Below, piece after piece: positions 17,614 through 46,479 of a stretch of 64,000 nucleotides of DNA (positions within the stretch are counted from its first letter, which is position 1; every line of letters starts with the position of its first letter). Position numbers and translations under genes: made by a program. The DNA comes from Tetrahymena thermophila SB210 (Eukaryota > Ciliophora > Oligohymenophorea > Hymenostomatida > Tetrahymenidae): NCBI RefSeq assembly GCF_000189635.1, contig NW_002476512.1:1302001-1366000 (forward strand), read 5' to 3'. The notes under the pieces are model-generated. The model did not search any database and was not told the DNA's origin. It worked only from the letters and a program-made list of their open reading frames with translations.

Positions 17614-20600
17614 ATGAATTAAACTCCATAAAAAGCTAACAATCAAGAAACGATTGCAATAAATAATATTTTGAGTAGCCCTTAATATATCTAGCAAAAT
17701 GTATAAATAGATTAATTATAAAATGAGAAGAACATAACAAGAAATTCCCAAGTAATATCAGTTTCTTGTTCAATTAAATGTGTTATGAAGCAGCTATAAA
17801 ATATATTTTATTAAATAAAAAGGAAGATATTTAATTTTAGGAAGGAATCATTTCAAAAAAAATTTAAGATGCTAATAATGAAATAGATAGAAATACTTAA
17901 AACTATCTTTAAACTCATGAAGAGTAAGACCAATAATAGTATTCTCATTAAAATTTAGGATAAAATGTAATTAATTGCTAAGATTTTTTATAAATGATAT
18001 TATTCCTAATTTTTTATTGACCATTTTTTTATCATTTTATTATTTTTTTAAGGCAGATAGTAAGTACACAAATAATAATTCATTTTTTCAAATAATTTTA
18101 AAAGAAGGAAAAGGAAGAGAGTGCCAGTAAAAAAATGACTAAGAATAATTATTATAGGGTACTAAACTCTTAGTAAGTATTTAAAATATTATATTTATTA
18201 ATTTTAAATGCTGAAATAGTAAGAAATTTTCATTTTAATTAATGATTCTTTTTCATACTTAGCACTCTTCTACTAGTTATTTATCAATTATAATCTATAA
18301 CTTCAAAGTATTACAGACAAATTTTACTATTTGATTTTGAGAATAAATATAACAATAAATGATACAATAGTGTATATTAAAAAACTAACTAAGATTTTAG
18401 GCATTTATTTTAATAAAATAAGTGAAAATAAAAAATAATAATTTTTAGTAATACTTTTTTATTTTTCCTAATATAGAACTTTTAGATGGATAATTATTGC
18501 TTCAACTCTAGCTGAAATAGCTGCCTATTTGATGCACGACTATTCATACAGAATAACAAAGTAAAGAAAGGAGTCATTACAAATTAATGTTGTTGCAGAT
18601 TATTTTGAGCTTATTACAAATATCATATTTACAATTGAAATAATTTTTATAATTTTCGCTTATGGTGCCCACAGAAAGACATTAAATTAAATTTTTACTA
18701 CATTAAATGCCCTTTTATTGACAGTTCTTATATCAAGGTATATATAAAATTTATTCTTTTTTTGTTTTAAATGAAAAAATCATTTTAATTTATTTAAAAA
18801 CAAACTATTAATTTTATTTAAAAATGATTTTTTTAATTCAGTTTTTTTATTAAACATTTAGTTGGATATCGTATGCTACAGATGAAATTGAAGTATTTAA
18901 TGTTTACAAACATTTCAGAATACTGACTATTTTTCGACTCTTCCCTGTTCTAGCGAAGAAAGTCAATGCCTTTTTTGGTAGCTTTAAGCACTTAGGAAAA
19001 ACATTTTTTCCTTTGATTTGTGTCATTATTTTCTACTCTGTTATTGGAATAAGCTTTTTTAGAGGACATATAGAAAGCAGATGTCGCTTAACAAAACATC
19101 CTGAAGAAGGAGAAACGATATGGGAAATTGACGAATCTGTTCACTTGCCTTGTGGAGTTGCATCTTGTCCTTCTCAATCTTATTGTGGAAATCCTGCTGA
19201 ATATGGATTACCTGAATACCACCATGAATTCGATAATGAACATATGTTATGGGGCTATGTTAATTTCAATGATATTTTTAATGCACTTTTTAGTGTGTAT
19301 AACTTTCTTATGATAAATGGTTGGGTTGCTACTACTAATATAGTAATTAATAATACATATTTAATTAAATTCTTTATTTTGAATTATTATATCAAATAGT
19401 TTTGGAGAGCTCAAGACAAGACTGTTTCTGGAATATATTTTGTTTCGCTAGTTTTATTATTGTAATTTATTTAGCTACCCTTTTTATATTTTTGATTTTC
19501 TTATCTTTATTTTTTTTATAAAATAGATCCCAAATTTTTTCTAACATTGTCTTAGCTACTCTTTATGAAGGATTCATGGACAGTAATACTAGCGGTAAAT
19601 AAAGCTCAAAGGAAGGAGGAGAATCAACTCTATAGAACGATAAGGAAAGCAAAGCATCACCGACTCAAAAAAAGTCTATCTTTAAAAAAAAATAAAAAAA
19701 TGCTTCTAAGTTTACTAAGCATTCAAATGACAGCGAATAGGAATAAGAAAAAATGAGAAAATAAGGTCTTATGTTGATATCATAGATTTCTTGTGTTAGA
19801 GATGATTAATTAAAATACAATAAAGGCTATAAATTAAGTTTATTTCTTTAATCTATATATAAATATGCTAAACAGTTTAGAAAATCAACTCTATTTAGTT
19901 TTTTACATTTTGTTAATATAATATCGATAATAGTAGTCCTCTGTATTGACAAGTAAATTAATTTACTTTCATTTATAAATAAAAAATATATCATAATTAA
20001 TTAAATTTTAAATAGTATTTAAATAGAAGGATATGAATATGTTAAGTTGAACAAAGCTGATTTTATTGTCACAATGATATTTTTTTCTTTTTCTTTTATA
20101 GAGTTAATCACTTAAGGAAAAAAGTACTTTGAGCAAAAACTCCTTCTACTAGATGCCTTTATTATCTTAATAACATCTATTTCATATATCGTGGAGAGTA
20201 GTAAAGGCTATGATATTTTCAATCCATAGGTTTAAACATTTATTTTTATAAGATGGATAAAAATGCTGCGTATACTAAGACTAATAAATGAATTCTCTAT
20301 ATTTGGAAGCTTAAAAATCTTGTTACATACTTATTATTATACACTTGCCTCTTTGCCTGAGTTTCTTTTCTTGTGGGTCCTTCTTATCGTTCTTTTTGTT
20401 CAAATAGGTAGAGAGCTTTTGGCAGGAATGGATGGAGGAGATGAACATTTCGATGAAGAAGAAACAATTATTAGAATTAATTATAACACACTTCATAATA
20501 GTTTGATAGCTGTTATTATGATTTGCTATAACGAAGAGTGGCAATTAGTTATGTACAAATATAGGAGAATAGTTGGTTACAAAAGTATTTTATATCACTT

Positions 20601-23600
20601 TCTTGCTATGCTAATCCTTTAAGTACTATTTGTTAGGCTTTTCATAGCTATTTTTATAAATATTTTTATGAAGTGGCTGAGAGAAAATGAAATTGTATTA
20701 TATCACTCTCAAACATTAGTTATTATAAAAAAACTCACAAAGCAAGCTACAAATTTCTTTAATTCGAAAAGAAATTAAATCTAACCTCAACAATCAAACA
20801 CTCTAAAAGAAAACAATAATATTAAGCAGCAAGCATCCATTAAAAATTCAGTAGAAGAAATGTAAGAATATTAGTAAGATGGAATGAAAGGTTATGAAAA
20901 GCAATAAAATTTGAAAAATGAAACAAAAATGTTGAATTAAGATAGCTAAAACTAGAAAATGAATGGAGCTATTTAAAATAGTCAGACTAAAAAATAAAAT
21001 TAAAATGGTAATTTAAATTTACCTAAAATAATTCATACAACTTCGATAGAAAAAATAGATGAAATTTAAATGAAAAAATAAAATCTTAAAAGAAAACAAT
21101 CACTTGAAATGCTTAGAGAAAGTACTTAACCTTCAATAAATGTAATAATGAGTAGAAGCAAATCAAATGAAAATTTGATTGATTAAAAGTAATAGCAAAG
21201 CTCTAGAGAAACATCTAGTAAGCACTAAAACTAGCTAATAGCTTATCGTAAGATTAATACACACTCGCATGCATCAACAGCTTTTAATATTGTGTTAAAT
21301 AACGATTCTAGTGAAAAAGATTAGATAGCTGAACCAATTAATTAAGAAAATAAAAACGATTAAAAATAAAATAATATATTTTTGTTAACTCCATAAAGGT
21401 CAATTTATAACAGAAGTAAATCAGGTGAAAATGAAAATAGAAATAATCAAGATGAATTTAATAAAATAGAGCATGCTAAATTTAATATCCAAAGCCATAA
21501 TTCATCATAAAAAAGGACTCGTCATAGCTAACTACCCAGCATATCATTATAATCTCCATTAAACAGCTCTACTGTATTTCCTTTTATAAATTAAAATTGT
21601 ATCAATGAAATCATAAAACAATCAAGCAGAGAATAATTCTAGTCAGACGCTGAATCATATCCCTCATAATCTAAGTATGATAGATTGTTGATTATGAGCT
21701 TAGAAAGTTTAAAAAGCTAAGAAAATAATGATAAGCTGAGTTAGAATGGAAAATAGAATTCTCAACATCACTCAAATCAATAATAACAGTAAAACGAATT
21801 TATCGATAAACTAAATAATAATAATAATGCTTATAACAAAAATCTTGGAAGTAATAGCTTTAAAGAGCTTAATATGACCAGTGAATAAAATGAAAATAGT
21901 CATGACATAAATAATGATGAAGAAGAAGAAGAGAGATCTTTGTTCATATTTAGTAAAGAAAATAAATTCAGAAAAATCTGCAAAAATATTGTAATGCACA
22001 ACTACTTTGATTACTTTAACTCTATTTGCATAGCTGCTCTTGCTTTTCTATTTTGCGCTGACACTCCATTTGTTGATCCAAACAGCTCAGAGCAAGTAGT
22101 TATAATAGTTTTCCATGCTATTTTAACGGCCTTTTTTATAATTGAAAATATTATGCAAATAATTGCATATGGTTTCATTTTTTCACCTACTTCCTTCATA
22201 TAAAGAAACTGGTTTTTTAATTCTATTGATATTATCACAACAGTTGCCTCATTCTTCTATACAGTTGATTTTTGGCCAAGAAGTGTATATGTATTTAAAT
22301 TCATCCTAATCTTAAGATTAACTGTGCTATTCTCTTTCTTATCCCATTAAGTTAAAGAAGTTCACCATGCAGGTAAAAATTTAATTTTAAAATAAAAAAA
22401 TTATTCATACTATTATTGAATTTTGCTATGAAGAAAATTTTTATTTAAACAATTAATTTTCTGATTTAAGGAAAATAGTATTTATGATTTTATTAAAAAA
22501 AATATTATTTACTAATTAAATTTAAAGGAATGATTTTGATAAAGTGTCTCCCCAGAATGCTAAGATTAATCATTTTTGCAGCTATATTCTTACTGATAAG
22601 CGGAGCTTTAACAACAAAATTATTGAAGGGATCTATGCATCATTGCTATATAGGAGATGAAAGTGATGGAGAAAATAGTGAAATACCAGAAATTATAACA
22701 AAATTTGATTGTTTAGATTTAGGAGGTGATTGGATAGATTCTTAATATAATTTTAACAATATAATAAACTCTCTTTAAATTCTATTTATGGTTTAATCTT
22801 CAGAAGGTTGGATTCATATTATGTTTAATGTTTATGACTCAACATCTCCTGAGCTTAATTCTCATTATCGCTAAAACAGTTTATGGGCGATATTTTTCAT
22901 ATAATTTTTCTTTATTGCAAACATCTGTATCCTGAATATGTTTGTCGGTTTAGTCGTAGAAACTTAATTAGAAATGATTGAATCAGAACATAAAACTAAA
23001 GATTTACATAAATTCTAAAAAGAATGGCTGTTTATCAAGAAATCTATATATTAGTTGAAGCCATCAGCAAAAGTAAAGAAATAAATAAATAAATTAGCTT
23101 TTAAAAAAATAATTTTCTAAAATTTTGTTTGTTTTTAAAATAGGTAAAAATACCTCAAGATAAAGTTAGAAAGTTCTTATTTGATAATTTAATTTAAGGG
23201 AATGCATTAAAAATAATTTTTTATACTTTCACTCTAGCTAACTGCATAAACTTAATGCTATTCAGAAACAGATAAACTCAAGAAGAAATAGACAAACTAT
23301 GTAATTACTATTTATTTGAATTTCAAAATATAATTTTTAATATTCAAATAATTTAATAATTATATTTTATAGATATAAATATAACTTGCCCTGAGGAAAA
23401 TTAATTTTTAATATTTCTTGCGTTTGTTTTAAATTTTTTTTACAGGAATTATTTTAATTTTTTATTTTTTTTCTAGTTTTTTAATGGAATTTATTAAAAA
23501 TTTTTAGTTGATTTTTTAAAACAATTTATAAAAATAATTTTAATAGATTTAGTAAATGAAGTTTGCTTAGTGGCTATGATTATTGAAATATTTTGCAGGA

Positions 23601-25714
23601 TGGTTTGCTTAAATTTAAAATATTTCACAGAACCTTGGAATGTAATTGATTTATCTATTGTCATAATTGGGTGGATAAACTTGAGATTTTAATAAACAAA
23701 TGAATTTGAAATTTTTGATAGAGGATTAAGAATTTTTGATGGAGTTGCTAAAGGACTATAGCTATTAAGATTTTATAGAATTATGAAACACTTTACAATA
23801 ATTAAGAAATTATTTAAATCATTGCAATATGCCATTTCTTCCATTTTTGGAATTTTTTAGGTTCTTATTATTTTCCTATTTATTTCAGTTCTGATCAGTA
23901 TGAACTTATTTCCTTACATCAAAGAGTAAAAGATTATAAATGGCTATGATGTGACCTTTAGGGATTTCCCTAATGCTCTATTTACACTTATCAGAGTTAT
24001 GACAAGTGAGTATTGGTATGTTGTTGCTTAAGAAGGAGCTAAAAAAATGTAGCCTGATTTTGTTTGTTTTGAAAATATTATTCTATATGAAGATTATTAA
24101 AAATATGGATAAAATGCATGCGGTAGTAGACTTTCTTATATATTTTTCTATGGGTTTTATCTTGTTTTCACTCTTGTCATCCTAAATATCTTTATTGCAA
24201 CCATCATAGAGTCTTATAAGGAAGCATTCAGTGCAGATGAAAGTGCTGTAAATCACTATCAATTAGATGATGTGTTAGAATTGTGGAAACAGTATGATCC
24301 AGAAGGAAAAGGATATATCAGCTATAAAGAATTTTGGCAATTTTCAAGTTAAATTGCAATTATCTATGGTGTAAAAAGCGAAGATCTGATGGATATTTAA
24401 AATAAAAATGAGTTTCTAAAAACACTAAATATTCCTATCTTTGAGGATCCCATAAATAAGGTATTTTGCTACAAATTCCATGATGTTGTAATATCAATCT
24501 CAAAGATATCTGTTCAAATAAAATATGGAATCACAACGTAAAAATAATTCTATCTAAATAAATTAAATTAATTTAAATATTTGTATTTATTTTTAAAATT
24601 AGTCTTGAGCCAGAAAATTCTAATCTCAGAAATTAATTAGACTCTCTAATTAAGAAGAAAAAGCTTTCAGGAGATGATATGATTAAGCCTACTTCATTTA
24701 CTAGTGCTGATATGGTTTTAATAATTGTATTAACTAGAAAAGTTAAATAATGGAGACAAAAAGTACTGGGCAAGTAAGAAGAATATATATTAGACATAAA
24801 GCAGTTAACTTAAAAATTAAAAAGCCAATTTAACAAATCCTAAAACATAAATTTAGAGCAAGCATAAAAAGAAGAAGAAAATGATAAAAAATAAACAAAT
24901 TAAGAAATTCAACAATTAAATTAACAACAAACTACTGAATAACTTAAAATTAAGGATATTTTAAAGGAAGATAAACAATAAGACACTGAATAATTTATCC
25001 CAATTACAGTAAAAAGTAAACTGCCTCCAATTGAAAAGAAAAAGTTTAATTCTAAATAATCAACTCTCAATAAAGCAGAAAAAAATGTCAAATTTATAGA
25101 ATGCTTATAAACAAAACCTTAAGAGTAATTTTTTATTTTTGATTTAATTTATTAATTTATATTTTAAATTTCTGAAAATTTTTCCAATATTTAAATTGTT
25201 TTTTTAATATTGTTTATCACAAATATAAATTCTGTTTGAATTTATTATTTTTACAATATTTATTATTTTATTTTTAAAATTTAGCACTGAAGATGGTTTA
25301 GTTTTATAAAATAATAACTAAGATGATTTTAATTATAATAATATCGAATAACCAAATAAAATTACAGATCAATAATTTGAAAAAAATAAAAGTTTACCTG
25401 TAAAAATTAGCAAATAAAACAGTAATGCTAGTAATAATATCTCAAACACTTAAATATAATAAAAAAGTAGTTCAGAATAAAACCAAAATCAAAATATTTA
25501 AAGCCCTGAAAATAATAATAACTGCTAAGAAAATTAAGAAAAGCAATTTAGAGATGAAAAATTAAAATTCAGCATTTTACCAATTGAGTTTAAGGCTACC
25601 AGTGTAATTTAAGAATAGGATAATTATCAAGATGATGATTTTGGTTTAGATGTCAATTTCAATCAAAACTTTATTTTTGCTTTTGATGAGTAAGAAGAAA
25701 CTCAAAATATTTGA
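17614..25714 (+). CDS. Four-domain voltage-gated Ca2+ channel-like alpha subunit, copy 2
   Basis: The start ATG 17614 (MNQTPQKANNQETIA) is chosen because exon 1 (17614-17700), exon 2 (17742-17966) and exon 3 (18053-18172) join in phase. The pre-S1 exons that follow are less certain. Domain I S1 contains AEIAAYLMHDYSYR. The filters are domain I MINGW (N codon 19316-19318), domain II YNEEW (E 20533), domain III SSEGW (E 22803) and domain IV TSEYW (E 24008). The domain III outer loop has DCLDLGGDW. After domain IV come an EF-hand-like stretch (YDPEGKGYISYKEF) and a pre-IQ-like segment, then a long Gln/Asn/Lys-rich tail with an intron near 25130-25283, ending FGLDVNFNQNF and TGA 25712-25714. The domain I S2-S3 intron splits the same Ser codon before WIS as in the other copies. 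The coding frame looks intact. Copy 3 starts only 0.87 kb downstream. Confidence 0.92.
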
Positions 25715-29500: not shown

Positions 29501-32500
29501 ACTATGTTTCTATGTATTTCTATTCTGAAATAGTAGGGGCTCAGAGTATTGTGTTTTATCTTTTTACTATGCTAATTTTATATGTCTTGTTTATGAGATT
29601 ATTTATTGCTCTGTTTATCAAACACTTTGTAAAATGGATGGAAGAGCTTGAGAAGGAAATATTTAATAGTAAAGAATAATAGCACATAACAGATTATTAC
29701 ACTTTTGTCAAATTAACTTTTTAAAGGTGTTTTTATTATTTTTTTAGCAAATCTGATATCAAAAAAAAGAGCTAAGTTTCTGCTATTAATGGTTAAATTA
29801 ATAATGTAGAGTCAAATATAAACGTAATAAATAATTTCAAGAATTCTTCTGAAAGTCTTTAAAATAAGATTTAGAAAAGTTTAAATTTATAAGTAGATAA
29901 AACAAACTATTTAAAAGATAAAATTTTTATGTCACCGAAAGACAATTTTTCGGTTAAATCTAGTAATAAAAATAACTCTTCTTACTTTAAAAAGTCTTCT
30001 ATTAAATCTTTAAGCTGTTAAGTTCAAGACGATAGTTCAAATTAATTTGTATCTCCTCCCAAAAAATTGAATCATCTGAATATCTTTTAGAATATTTAAA
30101 AAAGACCAACAATTCAAGGATTATTAATAAATCAAAAAGCTAATATCAAAAATCCTAGTAAATTATCTCAGTATGCAGAGGCAGGTGAATAAAATCAAAA
30201 GGATAGCCCTGGCTTAACAGATTTTAGCAATAATCAAAAAAATAAGTAAGATAATAATCAAAGGTAACAAAATGAGAGTTTTCATTAGGGTTCAGATTCA
30301 AAACCTAAATTATCTAATCTATTTTCTAAAATCACAAAAGATATTAATTCAGAAACATAATCTATCAAATTAAAAAGCGGTTACCTAAATAGTTAAAATG
30401 ATGATATGTAAAAATTGAATCCAAGTAACTAAAAGAGCTAATTTAATAAATTATTAAATAATGATGAATAAACTTATAAAAAAATAAACTTAAACCTAGA
30501 AATGTAGAATCATTCACCTAAAATTGGTAATTTTTTCCAACAAGAAGATTAAAATGAAAAAGATATTCAAATAGGTCATTTTTAAAAAGAAAAAGATAAT
30601 CAATAAAATGTAACTCAAAATCAAAATAAAAATGGCTATCTAGAAAATGATAATATAATTTAAGACAAATTGTCTAATTATAGTGCTAAAGAATCGTAAA
30701 ATATGAAAAGAGGAGATAATATAAATCATAAAAAATCCGATAGTCATATTAATAAACTTGAAAATAAGAACATTGAAGATTTAATCTCTCATAATTCTTT
30801 TAATAATCTTAAAGGAAAACACCAAAAGAGTAATACTATTATGAATATCCCTACTGGATTAACAGAGACACTTCCTACTTAAAATAATAATCAGATATTT
30901 GAAAATAACTTTTTAGAAACTCCGTAAAAATAGGCAGATTTCTTAAACTCGAAAAATAATAACCAAAGTTCAGAGAATAACTTTTTAGAAATATCTTAAA
31001 AAAGCTACAAAATTCAAAATAGTTAGATTTCTCCAACCTAAAAATAAAAAAACAAAAAATTAAATCAATTTAATAGAAGCTAGAGTTTATTCATAAGCAA
31101 AGATATTGACAGTGTAGTCGAGAGTATCAGCATGAGTAATAAAAAAAATTATAACAATAAAGAAAACAGTGACTCAATAATACAAGAAAGTCAAGCAGAA
31201 AAAAAATAAAATTAATTGAATATCGTTTAAAACATAGAAGAAGAATTAAGTAACTATTAAAACTATTAAATTGATGAAGAAAATTCGCTTATTTTGACTT
31301 TTTTCAGTATTATACAAAGTAAAAAATTTGATTTCGCTATGATTGTTTTCTTTATTTGTTAAGCAGTTATTTTTGTATTGGATTCACCTTATCTGGATAC
31401 AAAGAGCAAATAAAAATTGACTCTCTTAATATTACAGGGAATACTGAGCTTCATATAAATATTAATAAATTTGATTAAAATATTCAATTTAGGGCTGCTT
31501 AATTACCTGACATAAAATTACACAAATATAATTGATCTAATTACATCAATTACCTGTTTTGTGTATGTCTTCCCTCTTAATAAAGAACCTCTATATTACC
31601 TTAAGCTAATCAATATCTTTAGACTGCTATTAGTATTGATATATTTGGCAAAATATAATCAGTAAATTAAATTTGCAGGTAAAACAAACACATCTATTTT
31701 AATTATCATAAAAAATTTAAACATTCATTCATAAATCCTATTTTAAACGCTATTTTTTATCTTCAAAAAAATTAAAGCAAATTATTTATTATTATGCTAA
31801 AGTTTTATTAATGAAAAATATTATTTTTTTTAGCTATTATTGAGGGTGAATAGTGTAATGTTCATTTATTCTAAATTTTTATTATTTTTCATTAAAAATT
31901 TGAAATGAAATTTTAAGTTTTTTTAAAATATTTTAATTATAAAAGGAAAACTTGTGTAAGAGTGTGCTCCAAGGATGAAGAAACTAATCACGTTTACCGT
32001 TTTATACTTGCTAATGATGGGAATAATTACAACTAAATTGCTAAAAGGTTAAAATTGGTAATGCACATTCCCTACTGTGTACGGTGAAGATAAAGGATAT
32101 TAGGAATTAGTTGTTTCAAAAACAGACTGTATTGATTTGGGAGGAGACTGGACTGAATCTGACTACAATTATGATAATATAATAAAATCTGTTTAAATAT
32201 TATACAATATATAGTCATCTGAAGGCTGGTCTCAAATCATGTTTGATACCTATGATTCTCAAGGAAGAAACTTAACTCATTAATACTAAGCTCATAGTTA
32301 TTGGGCTATATTTTTTATTCAATTTTACTTTATTGCTTTTGTATGTTTTCTTAACATGTTTGTAGGACTAATGGTAGAATCCTTTAGTGAACTTCTTGAA
32401 AAAGAGAATCTCATTCACACACTGAATCCTTAGCAAAAAGAATGGTACTTCATAAAGTCATCCATTTATGGTATTTCACCTAGCAAATAAGTAAATTTAT

Positions 32501-34194
32501 TTATTTGTTTTTACTTTGGAATTAAAAAAAATATCAAATAAAATAGTTAGCTCCTCCAGATAATCCAATATCTAAATTTATTTTTAAGCATCTTATCAAA
32601 GGATATGCTTTGAAAATTATTATCTACATATTTATTTTGTTGAATGGGATATCATTTCTTTTCTTTAAAAGTAGAATGACCAGGGATGAATTAGAAAATC
32701 TATGTAAAAAATTTTTTCATTTTAAGTTAAAAATTCATTAAAAATTTTTTTTTTAAAAAAAAATAGATCTAATTAACAAGATTTGTTTATCAGTTTTTTC
32801 TGTAGAATTTATTCTAATCTTAATAGCTATACAAAGACAATTTTTGATAAGTAAAAAAAATTTGTTTAACCTCACAGTCATTATTATTGGATGGCTAAAT
32901 TTAAGTTTCTAGTTGAATAACGATGTCAAGACATACAATTTCAATTATAGAATTTTAGATGGCATAGCTAAAGGCTTATAATTGATCAGAGCTTATATTA
33001 TTTTTAGACATTTTGTTTTGATTAGAAAACTTTTTAAAAGCTTACATTATGCAATATCTTCGATCAAAGGTGTACTTATTATAGTAGTTGTCTTTCTGTA
33101 CACTTCTGTGCTATTGTCCCTTAATCTTTTTCCTTATTTAAAACCTTAGGAAATCATAAACTATTACGATAATCATTTTCAAACGTTCTTTTAAGCTACT
33201 TTTACTCTAATAAGAATAGTTACTAGTGAAGCATGGTATTTAATCCCATTAGAATGTTCATAGAAATAAGAACCTAATTTTGTATGCCGAAATGATATGC
33301 ATTCATATGAAGATTATGTCTAATTTGGATTAGCGAGTTGTGGAAATTCTCTTTCTTTTTTCTTTTTCTACTTCTTTTATCTATTTTTTACACTAGTAAT
33401 ACTAAATATTTTTATTGCTACAATCATTGAATCTTATAAACAATCTTTCAAAGCAGATGAAAGTGCTATTAATCACTACTAAATGGATGATATTCTTGAA
33501 TTATGGACTGCATTTGACCCTTAGGGAAAAGGTTATATTACTTATAAATAATTTTGGAAATTTTCCAGCTAGATAGCTATTATCTATGGTGTTGATAGTT
33601 AAGAACTGCTCGATATTGAAAATAAATAAAAATTTTTACAGACTTTAAACATTCCAATATTTGAAGACCCAGAAAATAAAATTTTTTGTTACAAATTTCA
33701 TGACGTTGTAATTTCACTTTCAAGAATTTCTGTCTCAATCAAGTATGGTGTTAATAAGTAAACATAAAAATTAAATTTAACATTTTTATTATGTTTTCTT
33801 TATTTTAATATATAAAAAGCATTTTCATGATTTAATTATTGTTTATTAAATAATAATTTAAAATAGCTTAGAACCAGAAGATGCAGATCTTAATTACATT
33901 TTAGAGTAGAAAATCGTAAAATCCAAATTAAAAGGAGAAAATTTAATAAAACCAACTAATTTAACAAGCTCAGACATGATTTTAATAATTATACTTAGTA
34001 GCAAAGTAAGGCTATGGAAGAAAAAATTTGTAGATAAAAATCACGATTCCTAATTCTATTCAAACTTAAAAAATATCACAATGAAACTAAAAAACTAATT
34101 ATATACATAATCATAAGAAATATAGCAAAAAAACTCGAAATTTGATTAATAGAATTAATAAATTGAAACCTAAGATAATTGCAAATAAATTTGA
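26586..34194 (+). CDS. Four-domain voltage-gated Ca2+ channel-like alpha subunit, copy 3
   Basis: The start ATG 26586 (MDKVKNEIQANHVNN) opens a 96-nt exon. The following exons encode an acidic, charged N-terminus (HEIEEEMKEVDVGKEE), then SKSQILCNQYVNSF, joined by a 36-nt intron (27269-27304) to S1 (YYKRIILLFTLLQIAG). The filters are domain I MVSGW (S codon 28107-28109), domain II YNEEY (E 29494), domain III SSEGW (E 32221) and domain IV TSEAW (E 33228). The domain II filter has Tyr in place of the usual Trp after the acidic pair. The domain III loop has DCIDLGGDW. The C-terminus has FDPQGKGYITYKQFW and a pre-IQ-like helix, then a short Gln-rich tail ending at TGA 34192-34194. The domain II-III linker is very long (about 29.7-31.3 kb) and Asn/Lys/Ser-rich. 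It converges on the DNase II-like gene, with only about 100 nt between the stops. Confidence 0.92.
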
Positions 34195-34298: not shown

Positions 34299-36697
34299 TC
34301 ATATTGTAAATATTAAATATAAAATTAAGAGTAAACTTGGCTCAAAGAGTACACTATATGAAAATCTGGTAACTTCTATTTTAATTGGTTAGCATTTTGA
34401 TTCTTCTAAAAAATAATTTTCTAAACAACTTGTACAAGTATTTGCTGATTCTTTACACTCCGAGCATGGTTATTAACAAGGTAAGCATGTATTTAAATTA
34501 CTAAGGAAAAATTTTGGAGGGCAAGATAAACAAGAATTTGGATCAGAATCTTTGGTGCATGTTAAGCAGCTATTATGACAAGTTTTAACTTTATTAATTT
34601 CGCTTTTAACGCATTTTTAATTTTTTAATATATATCCATCTTTACAAGCAGTGCAATTGTCAGCAGATTCTATGCATTAAGCGCAATCAATTCCACAATT
34701 CATGCATTATTTAGTTATTTTATTCAAGTAATAACCTCCTTTACATGTTAAACAAGATTAAGGGTTGTAAGGAGATGAACATGTTAAGCATGATTTATCG
34801 CATTAATAAGGTAAACAAGTATTTAAATTTGTAAGGAATAAATTAGGAGGACAAGATGAGCAAGCATTTGGATCAGAATCTTTTGTGCATGTTAAGCAGC
34901 TTATATGACAAATTTTAGTCTTACTAACTTCATTTTTAATACATTTCTTATTGTTAAATGAAAATCCATCTTTGCAAGTAGTGCAATTATCAGCAGATTC
35001 TAAACATTAAGCACAATCAACACCACAAATCATGCATTCATTTGTTATTTTATTCAAGTAATACCCTTCCTCACATGTTAAACAAGATTATGGATTCTTT
35101 GGAGATGAACAAGTTAAACATGATTTATCACATATCGGTAGGCATTCATAATTTTTTAAAATATAATTTTATTCGCATTATGTACATTTATCTCCTTTTT
35201 CACAATCAGTACAAGGAGAAATACATTTTTTACAATTATTGTCATCTGTTAAGTAGCTACCTTTAGAGCAAGAAAGACAAGAATCTGGATCCTAAGGTTA
35301 TGAGCAAGTTAAACAAGATTGATCACAAGTTGGAATACATTAGGAGTTTTTATCTAATTCAAAATTTTCGATGCATTATGTGCATATATTTCCATTTTAG
35401 GTACAAATTTCACAGTTTTATTAACATCGAGAACATTTGTTTCCATCTAAATAAAATCCTATATCACATTCAATACAGATATTTGAGTCTGAAGATAAAC
35501 AGCTCTTACATCCAGATTAACATTAAGGGATTTTACAATTTTAACAAGAAGGATCACAATCATTTTTAATTTCTTCATAGCCATTATTATTTGTGCAACC
35601 TGAGCATTAAAGAATTTTAGTAAATTGAAAATGAATATTTTTATTGCTTATGCATATTGTGCCACCTCCTCTTTTCCATTACGATTTCATTCTGTTAATA
35701 TCACCTAAGCAAACAAATGGCTTAGCTTTATCTATTGATATACCATATTTTGAATGATCTTATGTGTCTTTAAATTATGGTGCTCCATCTATCTAAACTC
35801 TTGTATTAGAAACTACTTAGTAAGATCCTGAGCATGAAGCTTCTTCATAAGGTCTTCCCCAGCTTTAAACCAACAGACCAGTTTTTAGTTCTTGGGTAAC
35901 TATCTATTCATATAATGGTATTTAATTGTCTTTATTTTTGGAAAACTTTGTGAATGTTTCTCCATTCAGAGTCGAGTAAGTAATTATCATTTATTTGGTC
36001 TTAGTATTGCGTTTGTTATTTTTCATCTAATTGAGGCAGGGATAAGAACTCTGATCAATATAATATGGAAGAAAACTTGAATACACTTTTGGATTATCAA
36101 TATTGTAGCCACATGCTAATTTCTCTAAATTTTCAAGAGAAGTACTAGTACAAAGAAAATGCTATCCATATTTTTGTTGAGATTCTTCAATATTTAAAAG
36201 TATTTCCTTTAAGCTGCTGCTATCAGCGAATGCAGGAAACTCTGGAACACTGTGAATAAGTATAAATCCAGATTTTCTATTTTTCATCAAAAAAATATAA
36301 AAATTTAATAAAGTAAAGCTAGCTATATATTTATAAATAAATAATTTTACTATCCTAAACTAATAAATCCTTTAGCATGAGCATTACTGCTGGTGGCTGT
36401 CATATTATTTGGTGGCTAATCATTCCATAAAAGATACCCTTATTTGTCATTATTAAGGTTTTATTTTATTTATTATAAGGTTCTTAAAATTGGTGAATTT
36501 TTCGCATCATTAATTTTAAAGCCTGATAATTATATCTTATCACAACTCTTTGAATCACAGTAGGCATAATCATCACCATTGTTCAGTTTTAAGGTAATAA
36601 ACCAATCAACTTGAGCACCATTTGGGTTTATACAACTAGGATCGCTCTTAATTATGAAGATAAAAGACAGAAGCAAAATAGATTTAAATATTTTCAT
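34299..36697 (-). CDS. Secreted DNase II-like nuclease fused to cysteine-rich repeats, GPI-type tail, 774 aa
   Basis: Start ATG at 36697 and stop TGA at 34299-34301; exon 1 is 36697-36351 and exon 2 is 36276-34299, together 2325 nt in one frame. Residues 1-18 are a signal peptide (MKIFKSILLLSFIFIIKS). Residues about 20-330 match the DNase II family: VDWFITLKL, a YLLWNDQPP stretch, the first HxK motif in NAHAKGF (about residue 108), HSVPEFP, the second HxK motif in DHSKYGI (about residue 289) and GDINRMKSQWKRGGGT. In DNase II the two HxK motifs form the phospholipase D-like active site, so it is probably catalytically active as an acid endonuclease. Residues about 335-745 are furin/growth-factor-receptor-like Cys repeats (CxxC spacing), as in ciliate surface proteins. 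The C-terminus is hydrophobic (LFEPSLLLILYLIFTI), like a GPI-attachment signal. The nuclease may therefore be displayed on the cell or phagosome surface. That architecture is not one I recognise. Confidence 0.88.
34470..35132 (-). repeat. Internal tandem duplication (about 330 bp) in the Cys-rich region
   Basis: Two adjacent blocks of about 110 residues are nearly identical. Each begins CDKSCLTCSSP, continues QSCLTC, YYLNKIT, CAQC, ESADNC and SCLTCTKDSDPN, and ends near LNTCLP. The first covers about 35132-34803 and the second about 34802-34470. The similarity holds at DNA level, so the duplication is recent compared with the other Cys repeats. Confidence 0.85.
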
Positions 36698-38939
36698 TTA
36701 TTTATCTTATTTTTTGCAAAATTTTTATAAATTTATTATTTAATTAATTATGATCAAACAAATGAGAGGAAAATGATCTTCTTAAATTATTAATTTATAA
36801 ATTGTAAATGTTTGGTGATCTAATTTGTATTAAAATTCTTAGCTTAATATTTTTGAATAGCTAATTATATTTCAGTACTAGTTAGCATGTATATCAAATA
36901 TACAAATGATAAGCACATAAAATTATTATTAGTTTAATTTTTTTTAATAATTTTTGATAAATCTATCAGGTTATCAATAATGACGCTAATCATGATATCA
37001 AAAGCTATTCTATTTATATTTAATTATTTTCAAATAAAATAGTTCCATTTGTAAAACAAAAGTCATACATACATACATTTATCTCTACTTAAAAATTACT
37101 TTGAGTATTGGACATTAAATATTCAATTAGTTCTATTAATCAATAGATTAATTTTTAATCATACAAATTGAAAATTAATTTAAAATACTTACATGCTTAC
37201 TCAACACTTCTAGAACTACAAAAAAAAAAATACAAAATTATGCTTTACTAAAAAAGGATAATTTGCGGAACATTTATATCAAATAAAATAAACTTTGTTG
37301 TCAAAATTAAAATTTTTATTTTTTAAAGCACCTGGAATAGACAAAATTTAATAAAAGTAAAACCAATAATTATACATTTGCATTATATTTTCATGTGATT
37401 TTAATAATTTATTGTTTGATTTATCGATTTATTAAATCATTAATTTTAATTATGACAAAAACTAAAAAAATTATTAAAAATAAAAAATTATTAATAATTT
37501 TATTTATAGTTTGTTTAATTATTCAAATTTATTTTTATATTAAAAAACTTTTATTTTGTTTAAAATAATTCCCTTCTAGTTTTTTTGCCAATCTATCTTT
37601 AAAATATTTAAAAAATAAAATATTTTATCATTATTTATTTTTATTTAAAAATTAGACAGAAACATATTTTACAAACAATTTTTTAAATAAAGCTAAAATA
37701 TTTATTCAAAATTATATTTTGAAATTACTCATTTGTTAAATCAATAAATAGATAATTGAAAAAATAAATATATAAAGTATTATTATCAATTTTTAAATGC
37801 TAATGAAATGATTTACTAAAAGTTATAAATTGTTTGTTATTTTTTTTTGATGATAAGATATTTATTTGCAAAAATAAAACAGAAATATATTTTACTAATA
37901 TTTTTAATAAAACTAAAGTACTTCTTCTAAATAAATAATATGCTGAAATTAATGATTGCTGAAATCAATAAATAATTGAGAATAAGAAATATTACTATCA
38001 ATTTTAAATGGCAAATAAAGCACAGAAGCTTAAAAGAAAATAATTTACTTTATAAATTGTAAATTATTTTTTAGGTGAATTAGAAAATATTTGTAATTAA
38101 CAAGCCAGTCACATTCGTTCGTTAGGTTGTAGCATTAAAATATTTATCTTTACAAATCAAACAGAATCAATCATGTTTATTAATATATTTTTAAGCTAAA
38201 TGGTTTCTTCAAAATCAAATTATTAAATTGATGGTTACTGAAATCTATTAAAATTATTTAGAAAATAAAAAATGATTATAAATTAATTTATTTTTACTTT
38301 TTGATAAATATGAGACTAAAATTTAATAGAATATATTCACTTTAAATTACAAATTGCAAATTAATTCATGATATTTATTAGAAAAAAATTTGTAACTAAA
38401 TTGCCAAATTAGTTAGGTTGGCTGTAGGTTTAAAATGTTACTTTAAAAAAATCATAAAGAAAATATCATTTATAATGAATTTTTAATAAAGCTTTTAAAT
38501 TCTTAATAATCATATGATGTAATTAATGATTACTAAATGAGATAAAATAATTGAGAAAATGAAGGATGATTGATTATCAAATTTCAGAAGGTAAATTAAA
38601 CACTAAAATATTAATAAAAGAAAATTATTGGCTTAATTTTACAACATTTAAATTAACTTGTTAGAAGAAATATTTGTAATTGGTTAGAATTATTAGTTAG
38701 ATTTAAGCTTAAAAATACTTATAAGTTGGTAGTAATTGACAAAAATATTAACTTTTATCAAATAAAAAAGGAATTTAAAAAGAATAAGTAGAAAGAAAGC
38801 ACTTACTAACAGATTCATCAAAAACTTTGCTGACTTCTGGCTGATTTATTTTAACTAATATTATAAGTAAATTAGTTAATTAATTAATTGAGTTAATTTT
38901 TTTGGTAAACTATTACAACCAAGAAGAAGATAAGCTAAA
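36698..38939. repeat. Intergenic region with a degenerate tandem repeat of about 280-300 bp
   Basis: No gene was found. From about 37.65 to 38.75 kb at least four diverged copies of one unit follow each other. Landmark 1 (ACAGAAATATATTTTAC ... TTTTTAATAAAGCT) occurs near 37658, 37881, 38160 and 38456. Landmark 2 (TTACTGAAATCAATAAATAATTGAGAA) occurs near 37726, 37956, 38233 and 38529. Landmark 3 (TTAGAAAATATTTGTAATTAAC) occurs near 38073, 38375 and 38660. The array ends about 200 nt before the start of channel copy 4, so it lies in the promoter region of that gene and in the divergent upstream region of the DNase II-like gene. Confidence 0.7.
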
Positions 38940-41900
38940 ATGCAAACTAAAAAAGAAGCTAGTTCATTTATATAAAAGTAAAACAGTGTCATTTAGTTTT
39001 GTAATTAGTAGGATCGTCTTAAAGAAAGCTTAGAAGAAGAAAATTTTAAAGAATCATAGTAATTCAACACTGAAAACTAAAAATTATAAAATGAATATGA
39101 CTATCAAAGTACTCCAAAAAATAGTTGTGACATTAATAAAAAGAATATAAAATGGATAAATTCAATGAAAGATTCCCAAGAAAGATAGAAACTAAAAAAA
39201 TAAAACACCTTAAACAGCCAAAAAAATAGGAACCAATAGGATTAGTTTTAAAGCTTTAATAGTAGAGGAAAACGATCCGTTTATAAAAAAGATAATTATA
39301 GTCCTTAAGAAAGCTAAATTCAAAAAGAAAATTAGCAAGCGGAAATAGATAATATAGATAAAAAGTCTATTGGTCAATTAAAAGAACATACTGAAATTTA
39401 GACTCCCTCAATATAATAAAATGATGAAAAAACATCAGGGCAAAAAGATTGCAATTTTGAAGTAGATGATGTATTTATTTATTTGTTTATTTATTTAGTT
39501 TTTACTGAAATTATTTCTACTTGTAACTACTTGCAATTAATTATCTTATACAAAATTTAATATTAATAGGAAAGTACTTACGTTATGTTTTCTCTTTTTC
39601 TTTTCAGTAATGATAACGCAGTAAGAATATTTTGTAATAGATTCATCAATTCTAGGTAATTAATTTAATAGTTTATACACTTATCTACCAAGAAAGAAAG
39701 CAAGCAAGCATAACATGCATATTTTAAAAACGTAATGATTTAAAATATTAATGATTTATATTGAATTAAATATTAGAGTTTAAGCTTTAATAGAAATTGC
39801 TTTCACTATTACAAATGTAATAGCCCTAATGCTTACTGACTATTCATACAGAATATATGGCAATAATTATTTAGAGTATGGATTAAATTAGGCTAAGTAC
39901 ATTTTAGAGATTGTTTCAAATTCTGTTTTTACTCTCTTAGCTTTAACAAAAATAATTTCAAATGGATTCCTTTTAGGAAAGAACACATTTCTGAGAAAAA
40001 AATGGAACATATTCGACCTTTTAATTTTATCAAGCTCGTAAAATTTTGATTTTTTTTGTTACTTTTTTAATGCCAAAACAATATATTTTTTTAAAAGATG
40101 GATTAGTATAGAATATAATGATATAGAGATCTTGAATATTATTAAAGTTTTTAGAGTTTTGTTTTTAGTAAGGACTAATTAATACATTTAGCATTAAGTT
40201 GATTGCTTTGTGGTAGGTTTTAAAGAGCTATGGAAACCTTTCATTCCGTTTTTCTCAGTAGTATTGTTATACTCAGTAATAGGACTATACTTTTTTAATG
40301 GTTTAATGGAGAGTAAATGTAGATAGACTCCTGATCCTACTTTAGATCCATACTCTTGGCCTATTTTAGAAGATAGCCCTTATCTTTGTGGCTATACAAC
40401 TTGTCCTGATGATAGTTATTGCCGTAATCCCTCTGATTACAATCTTCCTGAAATTCCATCTGATAACAATTATATAGAATTATTTTATGGATTTACAAAT
40501 TTTGATACAATATGGCAATCAATGTACACGGTTTAAAGTTTTTTCACTGTAAATGGTTGGAGTACAGTGACAGAAATCGTAAATAAATTTATAATACTTT
40601 CTTTCATTTAATCTAAAAAATGAATAACTTCCTTTTTTTTACATAAAATAAATATTTTTTATTTCAGTATTAGAGAGCTTAAAACAAAACAGTCAGTTAG
40701 ATTTATTTTGGATCTTTAGTTCTACTATTGTAAACAAATTAATTGATTCATTAATTATAAAATCCTCACTTTCCATTTTTTAAGTAAAATTTATTTTATC
40801 ATAGAGCTCATATTTTTGGAAACATGGTCCTTGCAACTTTGCATGAAAGCTTTATGGAACATCATAGTATAATTAAAGATGAGGATGATAATTAAAATTA
40901 AATGATGAGAAACCTTGATTTAAAAATGCTCTTGAAAAAAGATATGACTATGCAAAAAAAATTTACTTAAGTAAGGCATTCCCACACAGGGATCAAGAAA
41001 AGGAAAACCCTTTTCAACAAAATTTTAAGCGAGTTTGCCCAGGATTCAAGCCAAAAAGAAAGCCAGAATTTAAAAAAACATAGCTTTTTCAGTTAAGTCA
41101 AAAATAGCTTAAAACAAATTTAAAATTCTTCTATTTATGTTATAATTAGACATACAAACATATGCCTATAGATAGTTGTTTTAAGTTTAGACAGGTAATC
41201 TAATTTTTAAGATAAAAAGATATTTATTAAATTTTCCTTCAGTAACGTAACAGACAACATAAATAACATTTATTATTTTATAAAAAAAAGAATTGATTAA
41301 TTTCTTGCATATTTTTTTTCAAAGATTGAATTTATTTACTTACTTACTTACTTTTTTTATTATATAAGGGTCTCAATTAAAGATGATCAACTCTCAATCT
41401 TGTATATAATTGACTTTATTACAACTCTTATACTATTTTTAGAGATCACAATTGAGCTTATTTCTTTTGGTTGGAAAAAATACTGGAAAGAGTAGTTAAA
41501 CAAACTAGACTTGTGTATAGCGTTGGCTCACATAATAATGTATTGCATAGAAACAAATAATTAGCTAGATATATTTTTTGCTACTAATTAATACAGTATT
41601 TTCATTCGTACAACAAAGGTATTAAGAATATATAGACTGATTTACACTTTAACTATATTTTAGAGTATAAAAGTTATCTTAAAAACTTATTCGAAAACTT
41701 TAAAGATGATAACTGGATATTTTATAGTTATATCTATTCTCATTACACTCTATGCTTTGATTGGGAGAGAACTGTTTTCTTAAAGAGTTCAGTATGATGA
41801 CATGATGATAAACTTCAATAGTCTCTCGGATTCTTTTTTAGCTGTACTTCTATTTTGCTTTGATGAAGAATGGCATATTGTAATGTATCAATACTACAAC

Positions 41901-44900
41901 TAAATAGGATATAGAAGTATGATTTACTGCTTGTTTTGCACATACACTTGCTCTGTAATCATGGTCAGTCTATTTATTGCCATTTTTATAAATAATTTTA
42001 TGGATTGGCTTCGCTTTTTTGAAGATTAAATTTACACTTCTTCGCCTTTTATAAACAGCATTTTTAAATTCTTTTCAAATCTTTATTGTAGATTGTAGTA
42101 ATATTTTTTATAAAATGGCAGTGAAAATACATTAAACTAAAATATTGACTTAAAAGAATAATAAATAAATTAAATTCCACCTTTAGAAGACTATGCATCT
42201 AAGTCTGCTTCACATTAAAATTTTACAAAAGAAGAAGAACTATTTAATAATAGTTCGCACAATGTTCAAAAAATTTCTAAATTCGTCAATTCAAACGTTT
42301 TGGCTAATCATAAATCAGAATTTTTAGAATAGCGAAAATTTTCAATAACTAAATCTAACTATTAATAAATATCTGTTTTACCTGTAATTTATTAAAAATC
42401 TGTAAATTAAGTGCATCATAGTGAAAAAGCGCTAAGTATTTTTAACAGAAAAAATACCATTAATCAAATGGTAAGTCCTTAAAACATATAAGGAGATCAT
42501 TAGGCAATATTAAATTCCATAAAAGAAAAATTCACTGATTTTGCTAATTAAGATACAGGATCTAAACAAAATTAAAACAACAAATCAGAGTTTTAAAATG
42601 TAATAACTACAATTAATGATGAATAAAAGGATGAAATAAACTAATTTATTGATAAATAATCTAATCATTAACAACAAGCTTCCAACAGCTAATTAGAAAA
42701 GCAGTAAATCTAAGATAAATAATAAGAAAATGAAATAAATTTAGAAAACTAAAGTTAAAAATTATGTGAAAATAAAGAGCAATATGGAGATGATTTTGGA
42801 ATATTGTAAAATATATAAAATGTTTAAAAAAATGAAGATTCTAAAAATTAAGAAGAATAAAACAGTGAGTTTGATTCTTCAAGTTAGCAATCAAAAGAAA
42901 GCTAATAATAGAGTAATTAAATGAAAGATGATAAATAAACAGAAATTTATATCTAACAAGCATCAGCAAAACGATTCTCTTTTTTCATTTTTTCTGCCTA
43001 AAGTTGTTTTAGGATTTACTGCAAGAAAATAGCAGATCACTCTTTATTTAATAAATTAAAAATAGTTTTATTATTATCATTTGCATTAGTTTTGGGTATT
43101 TTAGATCCTTACTTAGATATATATAGCTCATTTGGAAATTTCTTAATTTGGGCAGATTTTTGTATGATGATCATTTTTAATATATAAACGATTATTTACA
43201 GTATAGCATATGGTCCTATATTATATTTAGGTAATAACTCCTTTGATTTAAACATAAATAACTTTCTAGAAATAGTATTTAATATCTTTCATTTCCTTTA
43301 CTTTCTTCCTTTTTCAAACTAAACAATCTATGTTTTGAGGATCTTTAAAATTTTCAGACTACTTTTACTCCTTCCGTTCCTATAAAATAATTTTAGCTAA
43401 ATCAACTTTGCAGGTAAATTAATTAATTAATTAAAAATAACATTAAATTTATCAACTAATTTTTATTATTTTTGTGTTTATTATAATGGTTTTCAAATGT
43501 TAATTCCTTCAAATAAAATAAAAAAAATACTTTGTATTTAAAGACTTCACAATAGCTAATTTAAAATAAATAAATTACAAAAATTAAGTTTTTTTGTAAT
43601 TTTTACAAAATAATTTTTTTTAGAAATTTCAATTTATTTGTTTATTATTTCCAAAAAAAAAAAACATTTTTATTTAATCAGATTAAATTAATTTAAATAT
43701 TTTATAAAAATAAATTAAATATTTTTTAATTAATTAATAAAAAGTTCGTGTATGCAAAGCTTGCTTGCCAAGAATGTTAAAAATAATGATTTTTGGTATT
43801 ATTTTTGCTTTCATTAATAGTGTTTTTGTAACTAAGCTGCTGAAAGCTTAAATGAATTTCTGCTAATATGATGAGACAAGCTTCTCGGATTTTGAGGTGG
43901 TGACTGATAAAGATTGTATGGACGTTGGAGGAGACTGGGTTGAATATAAATACTAATTTAATAATGTTTTCTCAAGTATAGCAGTCTTGCTGATGGTGCA
44001 AACTTCTGAGGGATGGACACAAATCATGGAATAGTAGTTTAACTATACTTCTCCAAATACTTAACCAAAAAAGGAGCATTAAAGCTTTTGGATATTATTT
44101 TATATTCAGTTTTATTGCATTGCAAATTTTTGTATTTTAAATATGTTTGTTGGAGTTGTTGTAGATACATTCAAAGAATTAAAAGAAAATGAAGCAAAAC
44201 TTGATAAATTAACTCCTCAATAGAAAGAATGGTATTACATTAAATACTCTATTTACAGCTTATCAATATCAAAAAAAGTAAGTTTGTTTGTTTTTATACT
44301 AATAACTTAGTCAACATGTACATTTAAACATTAGATTACTCCTCCAGAAGATAAAATTAGCTCATTTATATACGAAACTTTGGAAGAAAAGAAATACTTA
44401 AAATATTTATTTAACTTTTTTACAGTGCTAAATTGTGCATCTATTTTAGGATATACACATAGATAAGACGAGTAAAAGCTGAACATTTTAAGTAAATTTG
44501 ATTTTGAAATCATTTCAAAAATAACTTAATTTATATTTTTTTTTATTTTTTTTTAACTATCAGACCTTATCAATTTATGCTGTATAATAACGTTTTGTAT
44601 TGAGCTAATTCTAAACATGATCAGTTTAAGAAAAGTTTATTTTGAAAAGAAATGGAATAGGTTTAATATTGTGATGATAATTATGGCGATTATCAACAAT
44701 TACTTTTAAACGACGATAAATTACAAATCTTATGATTATTTTTATAAAATATTTGGAGGAATCGCATGGAGTCTTTAGCTTATCAAAGTTTATAGAATTT
44801 TGGCTCATTTGAAAGTTCTGAAGAAACTACTAAACAGTTTTTTTGGAGCTGTTTCCAACATTTTTGGATTGTCAACTCTTGTTTTCCTCTTCCTTTATGT

Positions 44901-46479
44901 TTCAGTGCTCTTAGCGATGAATCTTTTTCCTTATATAAAAAATTAAAATACAATTGACGATTATGATACAAACTTTAATAGTTTCATGATGTCTTTACTA
45001 ACATTAATTAGAATATCAACGAGCGAGCTGTGGTTTCCTATCACTGCGGAGTGCGCAGCTTAGCAATCATCTGTTTTTGTGTGTAGATAAGACATTTACA
45101 CATATGATGATTATCTTAAGTATGGTAAAAATTCATGTGGATCTAACCTATCTTACTTCTTTTTTAACATATATTACTTCGTTTTTACTCTCTTTATACT
45201 CAATCTTTTAATTGCTTCGATCATACTTTCATATAAAGAAGGCTACATTTAAGAAGAAAGTGCAATCAATTTATATTAACTTGATGATATTAAGAAATTG
45301 TGGTCTAATTTTGATCCAGAAGGTCACGGCTTCATCAACTATAAACTGTTTTGGTAATTTTCTAGTTAAATAGCATAAATATTTGGTATAAAGTAAGAAG
45401 ATCTTTTGGATGTATCTCTAAAGAAAAAGTTTCTTGAAAGACTTAATATTCCTATGTTTGAAGATCCTTATAACAAAACGCTGGTCTACAAATTTCATGA
45501 TGTCATCATTAAATTGGCAGAAATTTCCCTTAAAATAAAATATTAAATAGAAAAGTATATTTTTTTAATAATCTATTGAATTCCTAGTTTTATTTACATT
45601 TTTTCTTAAAATAGTCTAGAACCAGATAATAAAGATATAAAAAGATATCACAAAAGAATGCTTTTGAAGTAAGAAAAGATAAAGAACGTCTAGTATTACT
45701 AAAAGTCTATGTTTAGGAGTAGAGACATGGTTGTTATCATAACCATCATCAGGAAGATAAAAGAATGGAAAAAGAGATATTTAGAAAAAGACAAAGACTA
45801 CTAAATTTTTGATATCAAAAATTTGACAAAGAGATTGTAAATAGTAAAGCAGTAAGAAATTTAATCTTAACTATCGAATCAAATCAAAGAAACACAAAAA
45901 AGTGAAAGCTTAATATAATAAAAAGAAGATAATTAGATTTAAAACACTGAATAACAACAACAACCATTATTTCCCAAATCTCAGAATTAGAAGTGCCAAG
46001 ATGATGATACCCTCTTTATTTTGAAAGAAAACTTTTAGACAGAGCCAATATCACCAGTTAGGAGAGCATCAGAAAATACTAAAACTCCTTTAAGCGCTTT
46101 TACAACTAATTTTGATAATCAAACATCAAATAATCCGTTTTAAGAGCATCAAACCATAAATCCAGACAAAGAACTCTAATAAAATGAGATAATATGCGAT
46201 AACACAGATGAGTCAATAGGAAAAAATGCTTCATTATAGATATTAGTACCTAATAATTAAATTAAAAGGAAAGCTTCGATATTCAAAAAAGAGTAAAGAG
46301 TCTTTTAATAAAAAGAAGAGAAAGAAGATTTTGATATGTCTAATTAAAACAAATAAAATAAAGCCAGAAACTCGCAATATCTATAGGTAAATGCATTTAT
46401 CAGCAACATATAACAGATAACAATAGAAAATTACGATGACGAAGTTAATAATCAAAATGAAGATGAATAAATAAATTGA
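38940..46479 (+). CDS. Four-domain voltage-gated Ca2+ channel-like alpha subunit, copy 4 (most diverged)
   Basis: The start ATG 38940 (MQTKKEASSFIQKQN) opens a long polar N-terminal exon ending before GTATTT at about 39472. A second exon has NAVRIFCNRFINS, joined in phase 2 to S1 (ALIEIAFTITNVIAL). The filters are domain I TVNGW (N codon 40552-40554), domain II FDEEW (E 41865), domain III TSEGW (E 44008) and domain IV TSELW (E 45025). The domain III loop has DCMDVGGDW. After domain IV come FDPEGHGFINYKLF and a pre-IQ-like segment ending KIKY, then a Lys/Gln/Ser-rich tail with DDEVNNQNEDEQIN and TGA 46477-46479. The intron before WIS in domain I is again in phase 2. The frame is intact. Protein similarity to copies 1-3 is clear throughout but visibly lower. 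It is the last recognisable channel copy in the window. Confidence 0.92.

Follow-up and report, generated by a model that had tools for sequence, protein, structure and literature searches.

A Tetrahymena thermophila DNase II-family gene that continues into a cysteine-rich stalk and an anchor-like hydrophobic tail

Our analysis of a 64,000-nucleotide stretch of the Tetrahymena thermophila SB210 genome (contig NW_002476512.1, positions 1,302,001 to 1,366,000; "the window" below, with its first letter as position 1) finds a gene whose predicted protein appears to consist of a DNase II enzyme, a cysteine-rich stalk and an anchor-like tail, a reading that is well supported by its sequence features. 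We give an even chance to this protein being a membrane-tethered acid nuclease that acts on food or extracellular nucleic acid, where the activity, GPI linkage, location and role are what we infer from those features. The gene lies on the minus strand from 36697 to 34299 and, with TAA and TAG read as glutamine (Q), its two exons encode 774 amino acids (AAs). The coordinates and the single intron given in an earlier note on this DNA are present in the sequence, and the features are as follows:

36351–36697, minus strand: exon 1, with the start codon, a signal-peptide-like start, the N-terminal part of the DNase II domain and the HxK motif H107/K109
36277–36350, minus strand: intron of 74 nt, GT..AG, 88% AT
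34302–36276, minus strand: exon 2, with the remainder of the DNase II domain (H124; H290, K292; CLGDINR; RGGGT), the Cys-rich stalk and the tail in one frame
35595–36637, minus strand: DNase II domain region, about AAs 21–343 (Pfam AAs 21–338), split by the intron
34392–35558, minus strand: Cys-rich stalk, 69 Cys between AAs 356 and 744 in roughly eleven six-Cys modules
34472–35101, minus strand: tandemly duplicated stalk segment; its two copies lie 330 nt (110 AAs) apart and share 82% DNA identity
34302–34391, minus strand: tail, 30 residues past the last Cys with the final 11 hydrophobic; GPI-signal-like, candidate site S755
34299–34301, minus strand: stop codon TGA

AT content is 88% in the intron and 71% in the exons. 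Two observations support the splice (36350–36277): the DNase_II profile match continues through it without a break, and in an exon-wise search of the genome the matches to this gene and to three of its paralogues (described below) break at the same profile positions, about 97–102. The splices of those paralogues were themselves picked to resemble the window protein as closely as possible, and it is on the independent exon-wise breaks that the shared intron position rests.

Ion_trans domains are present in seven of the ten long ORFs scanned (from 37 ORFs of at least 280 AAs in the window), at 4095–8004, 19273–24679, 32400–33827 and 40506–45576 (plus strand); the pattern resembles a tandem array of genes for voltage-gated cation channels, with the DNase II gene inverted between two of them. 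A MORN-repeat protein (E=1.3e-28) is encoded at 14967–15905 on the minus strand.

Its sequence features place the protein in the DNase II/NUC-1 family. The Pfam DNase_II profile (PF03265) covers residues 21–338 at E=3.8e-97 and 325.8 bits (curated cut-off 23), with profile positions 1–320 of 326 aligned, so the domain is near full length, and both HxK motifs read from the letters in the earlier note are indeed there, as H107-x-K109 and H290-x-K292. A third key histidine, H124, is also in place; the contexts of the three are HAKG (H107), HSVPEFP (H124) and DHSK (H290), and CLGDINR and RGGGT are found as well. The sole solved relative at E≤0.01 in a structure-sequence search is 5i3e/5unb (one sequence, E=5.7e-20), which we take to be a DNase II from Burkholderia, and HAKG, HSVPEFP and DHSK align with its equivalent motifs. 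The title of a reference in PMC11430429 names porcine His115, His132 and His297 as crucial, and matching by motif identifies H107, H124 and H290 as their likely counterparts. The start of the protein is signal-peptide-like, with a hydrophobic peak at about AAs 7–16 as judged by hydropathy only. An AlphaFold prediction from the exon 2 sequence by itself, with no alignment supplied, had a mean pLDDT of 35; it is not usable as a model and carries no weight here.

The 101 Mb genome (445 contigs, TAA and TAG again taken as glutamine) contains a TERT exon whose translation matches the T. thermophila telomerase chain 6d6v at E=1.6e-143, with every residue identical across the uninterrupted core of the alignment shown, as expected of T. 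thermophila or an extremely close relative. There are nine exon matches to PF03265 in this genome, at five loci, and the stalk is present at one of the five. Three paralogues on C114 could be rebuilt as proteins of 342, 347 and 340 AAs that are 42–47% identical to the window protein, with all motifs kept and the three key histidines invariant. The known animal DNase II enzymes end after the domain, and the three C114 proteins end just past it as well, at the point where a stalk would begin, whereas the window protein runs on for about 430 residues. At the fifth locus (C442, about 43300–44725), where the profile matched the second part only, inspection by eye finds FSKG for HAKG, DKSK for DHSK and FHGGN for RGGGT; this paralogue has probably lost its activity and retained the fold. 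Ciliate members of the DNase II family have been reported before (PMC5982838). Scans for more distant relatives, with six short peptide patterns from the window protein in viral contigs and with two short patterns each from an alignment of the four paralogues in prokaryote genomes and viral contigs, returned none; such scans are too insensitive to show absence, since they reported no DNase II from bacteria even though the PDB contains one.

The fusion of enzyme and stalk is present in the DNA, because enzyme and stalk are encoded in one open exon and nothing intron-like lies at their junction, and the earlier note's placing of both in one gene holds at the level of genomic DNA. The terminal TGA of exon 2 is its only in-frame TGA, where 300 mononucleotide shuffles gave a mean of 12.2 and a minimum of 4. 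One could still suppose that two adjoining genes had been taken as one, through an artefact of gene model or assembly, since the tail-less paralogues end exactly at this point and the model rests on genomic DNA. However, the junction lies inside the open exon, base composition there is exon-like, and no GT..AG stretch of 40–300 nt with more than 84% AT lies nearby; we consider such an artefact very improbable.

The stalk contains 69 Cys in residues 356–744 (about 390 residues), in a repeat close to C-x2/3-C-x3-C-x2-C-x5-8-C-x2-C-x10-12. For the two copies of the 110-AA tandem unit a simple count gives a dN/dS of about 0.23, suggestive of selection acting on the stalk protein. No solved structure matches the stalk at E≤0.001. 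The earlier note had called this half a furin-like Cys-repeat stalk; its Cys-rich nature stands, and "furin-like" describes a resemblance only, with Furin-like_2 (PF15913) matching at E=0.0023 and 18.5 bits against a cut-off of 28. The Giardia VSP family (PF03302) matches at E=3.7e-5 and 23.2 bits against 31.4, so that the window protein shares CxxC-rich repeats with both families but falls below the curated cut-off for each.

A stalk of this kind could also belong to a protein that is mainly a surface antigen or recognition protein of the Ser/i-antigen or VSP type, in which a nuclease domain was captured and its activity is incidental or lost. The Cys spacing fits the loose Ser pattern, CX(≥6)CX(≥1)CX(≥1)CX(≥1)CX(≥1)C within 120 AAs (for example with spacings 10, 2, 3, 2, 6), and the Ser immobilization antigens of T. 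thermophila are described as Cys-rich and GPI-linked (PMC4136848), so that Cys-rich repeats and a GPI-type C-terminus would be common to both; the window gene may already be among the Ser candidates in the supplement of that paper. On the other hand the pattern is a weak one, found in 4,925 of 24,725 T. thermophila proteins according to the same paper, the Ser antigens described there are not known to carry an enzyme domain, and the window protein retains its catalytic residues, unlike the C442 locus. We regard a mainly antigenic protein as quite unlikely.

The stalk type is widespread. A search of the genome finds at least 135 stretches of it, the window gene included, and among the matches listed these form 44 loci when clustered at gaps below 2,000 nt. 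Again among the matches listed, 22 of the 44 have a hydrolase in the gene or just upstream: M8 peptidase at 16, GH45 cellulase at five and DNase II at one. At 15 loci a Peptidase_M8 match lies 154–1004 nt upstream on the same strand (those at C138, with 1.1e-4, and C405, with 1.7e-4, are weak), and at the sixteenth, C139, a Pfam match lies about 1.1 kb upstream; for the M8 loci the link is thus one of adjacency rather than of a proven single gene. All five GH45 loci found in the genome (C146:38013, C146:30176, C146:43029, C304:26886 and C159:84404) are just upstream of stalk loci by comparison of coordinates, and at C146:38013 enzyme and stalk form one gene, because a GT..AG splice rebuilds the GH45 signature WDCCKPSCSW in frame with the stalk. 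For ten of the 23 loci that remained before C139 was added the upstream DNA was examined, and 20 of its 133 ORFs of at least 90 AAs, from nine of those ten loci (none from C22), were scanned; they gave one M8 (that of C139), one VSP-type region and one La/RRM protein, the last probably a neighbour gene. The stalks of C146:38013, C304, C159 and C139 pass the VSP cut-off. Judged by these sequence matches, the window gene exemplifies a "hydrolase + Cys stalk" design that recurs in the genome.

Two further observations concern these loci. The GH45 domain of the one spliced gene (C146, about 37800–40430) looks circularly permuted: query residues 73–141 and 180–245 match 5glx chain residues 73–143 and 149–212, and the N-terminal WDCCKPSCSW piece of 5glx (8–47) matches query residues 261–302, at the C-terminal end that adjoins the Cys stalk. 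The match of that piece alone is weak (i-Evalue 0.0013), and restoring the usual order of the pieces joins the stretches while changing the Pfam score little, from 79.0 bits to 79.9. Tandem M8 loci followed by long Cys-rich regions are found at C4:386459-448557, C5, C91 and C180; the largest of these regions, on C91, is an open stretch of 2,838 AAs with 489 Cys.

The hydrophobic C-terminal end reported in the earlier note is likewise real: the protein finishes in LLLILYLIFTI, 30 residues separate the last Cys from the C-terminus, and this end is not there by chance, its last-11-residue hydropathy being reached by two of the 802 TGA-ended ORFs of at least 50 AAs in the six frames of the window, this gene included. 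GPI signals are laid out as an attachment site, a spacer and a hydrophobic part that starts at w+9 (PMC4136848), and by hydropathy and layout only the tail fits such a signal with S755 as the putative w residue. A Glu-Pro directly before the hydrophobic stretch counts against GPI attachment or tethering. The last 93 residues align without gaps with the GH45-stalk protein of C146:38013, which has a similar end, and the C304 tail can be aligned only with gaps. These two GH45 genes are also the only ones of 31 Cys-rich ORFs, from 20 genome regions, with a hydrophobic tail 30 residues past the last Cys; the other 29 do not show absence of a tail, because each is a lone ORF, in some cases from the wrong strand, and four of them run off the stretch examined. 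Among the four GH45-stalk ORFs examined (the fifth locus, C146:30176, is known by its GH45 match alone), those of C159 and C146:43029 stop 4–5 residues past the last Cys, and the ORF lists downstream of them contain no tail exon. An anchor common to the whole stalk class is not established.

The closest parallels of the window protein in overall layout are found among other hydrolases. The leishmanolysin-like (M8) surface proteases of ciliates, as reported for the LSF family of Philasterides, have a signal peptide, an M8 domain, an extended Cys-rich region and a C-terminal membrane anchor in this order (PMC13384842), and in Tetrahymena M8 domains lie upstream of the same type of stalk. In its layout the window protein would resemble the tethered M8 proteases, but the catalytic domain and substrate are unrelated and the M8 proteins have many members, against one of five DNase II loci. 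The GH45-stalk genes (C304, C146, C159) share the stalk type and, in C304 and C146:38013, a similar tail; they differ in carrying a cellulase domain, apparently permuted in the one spliced gene, and in the two ORFs that have no tail. A GPI-anchored nuclease also has a precedent outside ciliates. The vertebrate enzyme DNase1L1 is not known to have a Cys stalk. It is a GPI-anchored, membrane-held nuclease, but of the DNase1 family, using divalent cations and mainly neutral pH (PMC9208542). For the earlier note, a fusion that is common and already described in ciliates would speak against its reading. This holds in part: the general layout is described for the M8 proteins of PMC13384842, and the stalk recurs in this genome beside M8 and GH45; as to the DNase II version, among the papers listed by our literature searches, some of which had other aims than the fusion, none describes a DNase II with such a stalk.

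Two alternatives keep the nuclease and change its place of work. In the first it is an ordinary lysosomal or food-vacuole DNase II, in which stalk and tail serve sorting or stability and proteolysis releases a soluble digestive enzyme. Animal DNase2 is an acid, lysosomal enzyme (PMC9208542), the three tail-less paralogues indicate a domain that is able to stand alone, and two of the four GH45-stalk ORFs lack the tail; however, 69 Cys over some 390 residues together with a strongly hydrophobic end exceed what a sorting tag needs, and we hold this explanation to be rather doubtful, if the most serious of the alternatives. In the second the protein is a nuclease of programmed nuclear death, which would break down the old macronucleus inside the autolysosome when cells conjugate. 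In Tetrahymena, acid DNase activity increases towards the end of this process and a role for lysosomal DNase II has been suggested (PMC5244887, citing Aslan and Arslanyolu 2015), but each of the four intact DNase II genes is a possible source of that activity, and a stalk that also occurs at cellulase and protease loci speaks for a role in feeding; this explanation, too, seems improbable.

The tethered nuclease that we prefer, at the even chance given above, would work as follows. The DNase II, an acid nuclease of the PLD type that needs no metal, would be secreted in catalytically competent form and sit on a disulfide-rich stalk that keeps it off the membrane and resists proteolysis. The hydrophobic signal at the C-terminus, for which a GPI lipid is most likely substituted, would hold it to the outer face of the plasma membrane. 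It could in this way reach the lumen of food vacuoles formed from that membrane and, where the compartment is acid, cut prey or environmental DNA (perhaps RNA) to 3'-phosphate oligonucleotides; the unrelated digestive enzymes M8 protease, GH45 cellulase and DNase II would share this type of stalk. An enzyme that, like DNase II, acts at acid pH (PMC9208542) would be ill-suited to the cell exterior, which counts against tethering. That a bacterivorous ciliate would carry such a nuclease at its surface or in its phagosomes is a reasonable inference, and the further role proposed in the earlier note, that of limiting foreign DNA, is without support in this analysis. Going beyond the single gene, we tentatively suggest, as a possibility less likely than not, a coat of tethered hydrolases (M8, GH45 and DNase II, with the same kind of stalk and an anchor) with which feeding would begin at the oral surface or food-vacuole membrane; the window gene would be the nuclease of this coat, directed against prey, biofilm or extracellular DNA.

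If the protein is merely a lysosomal nuclease with an odd tail, the finding is a modest note on domain architecture. If it is displayed, Tetrahymena would possess an acid nuclease that is tethered, where animals have a lysosomal DNase II, together with a modular platform in which one stalk is common to protease, cellulase and nuclease domains. The idea of a tethered nuclease can be tested in a genetically tractable cell, and it bears on how ciliates digest their prey and extracellular DNA.
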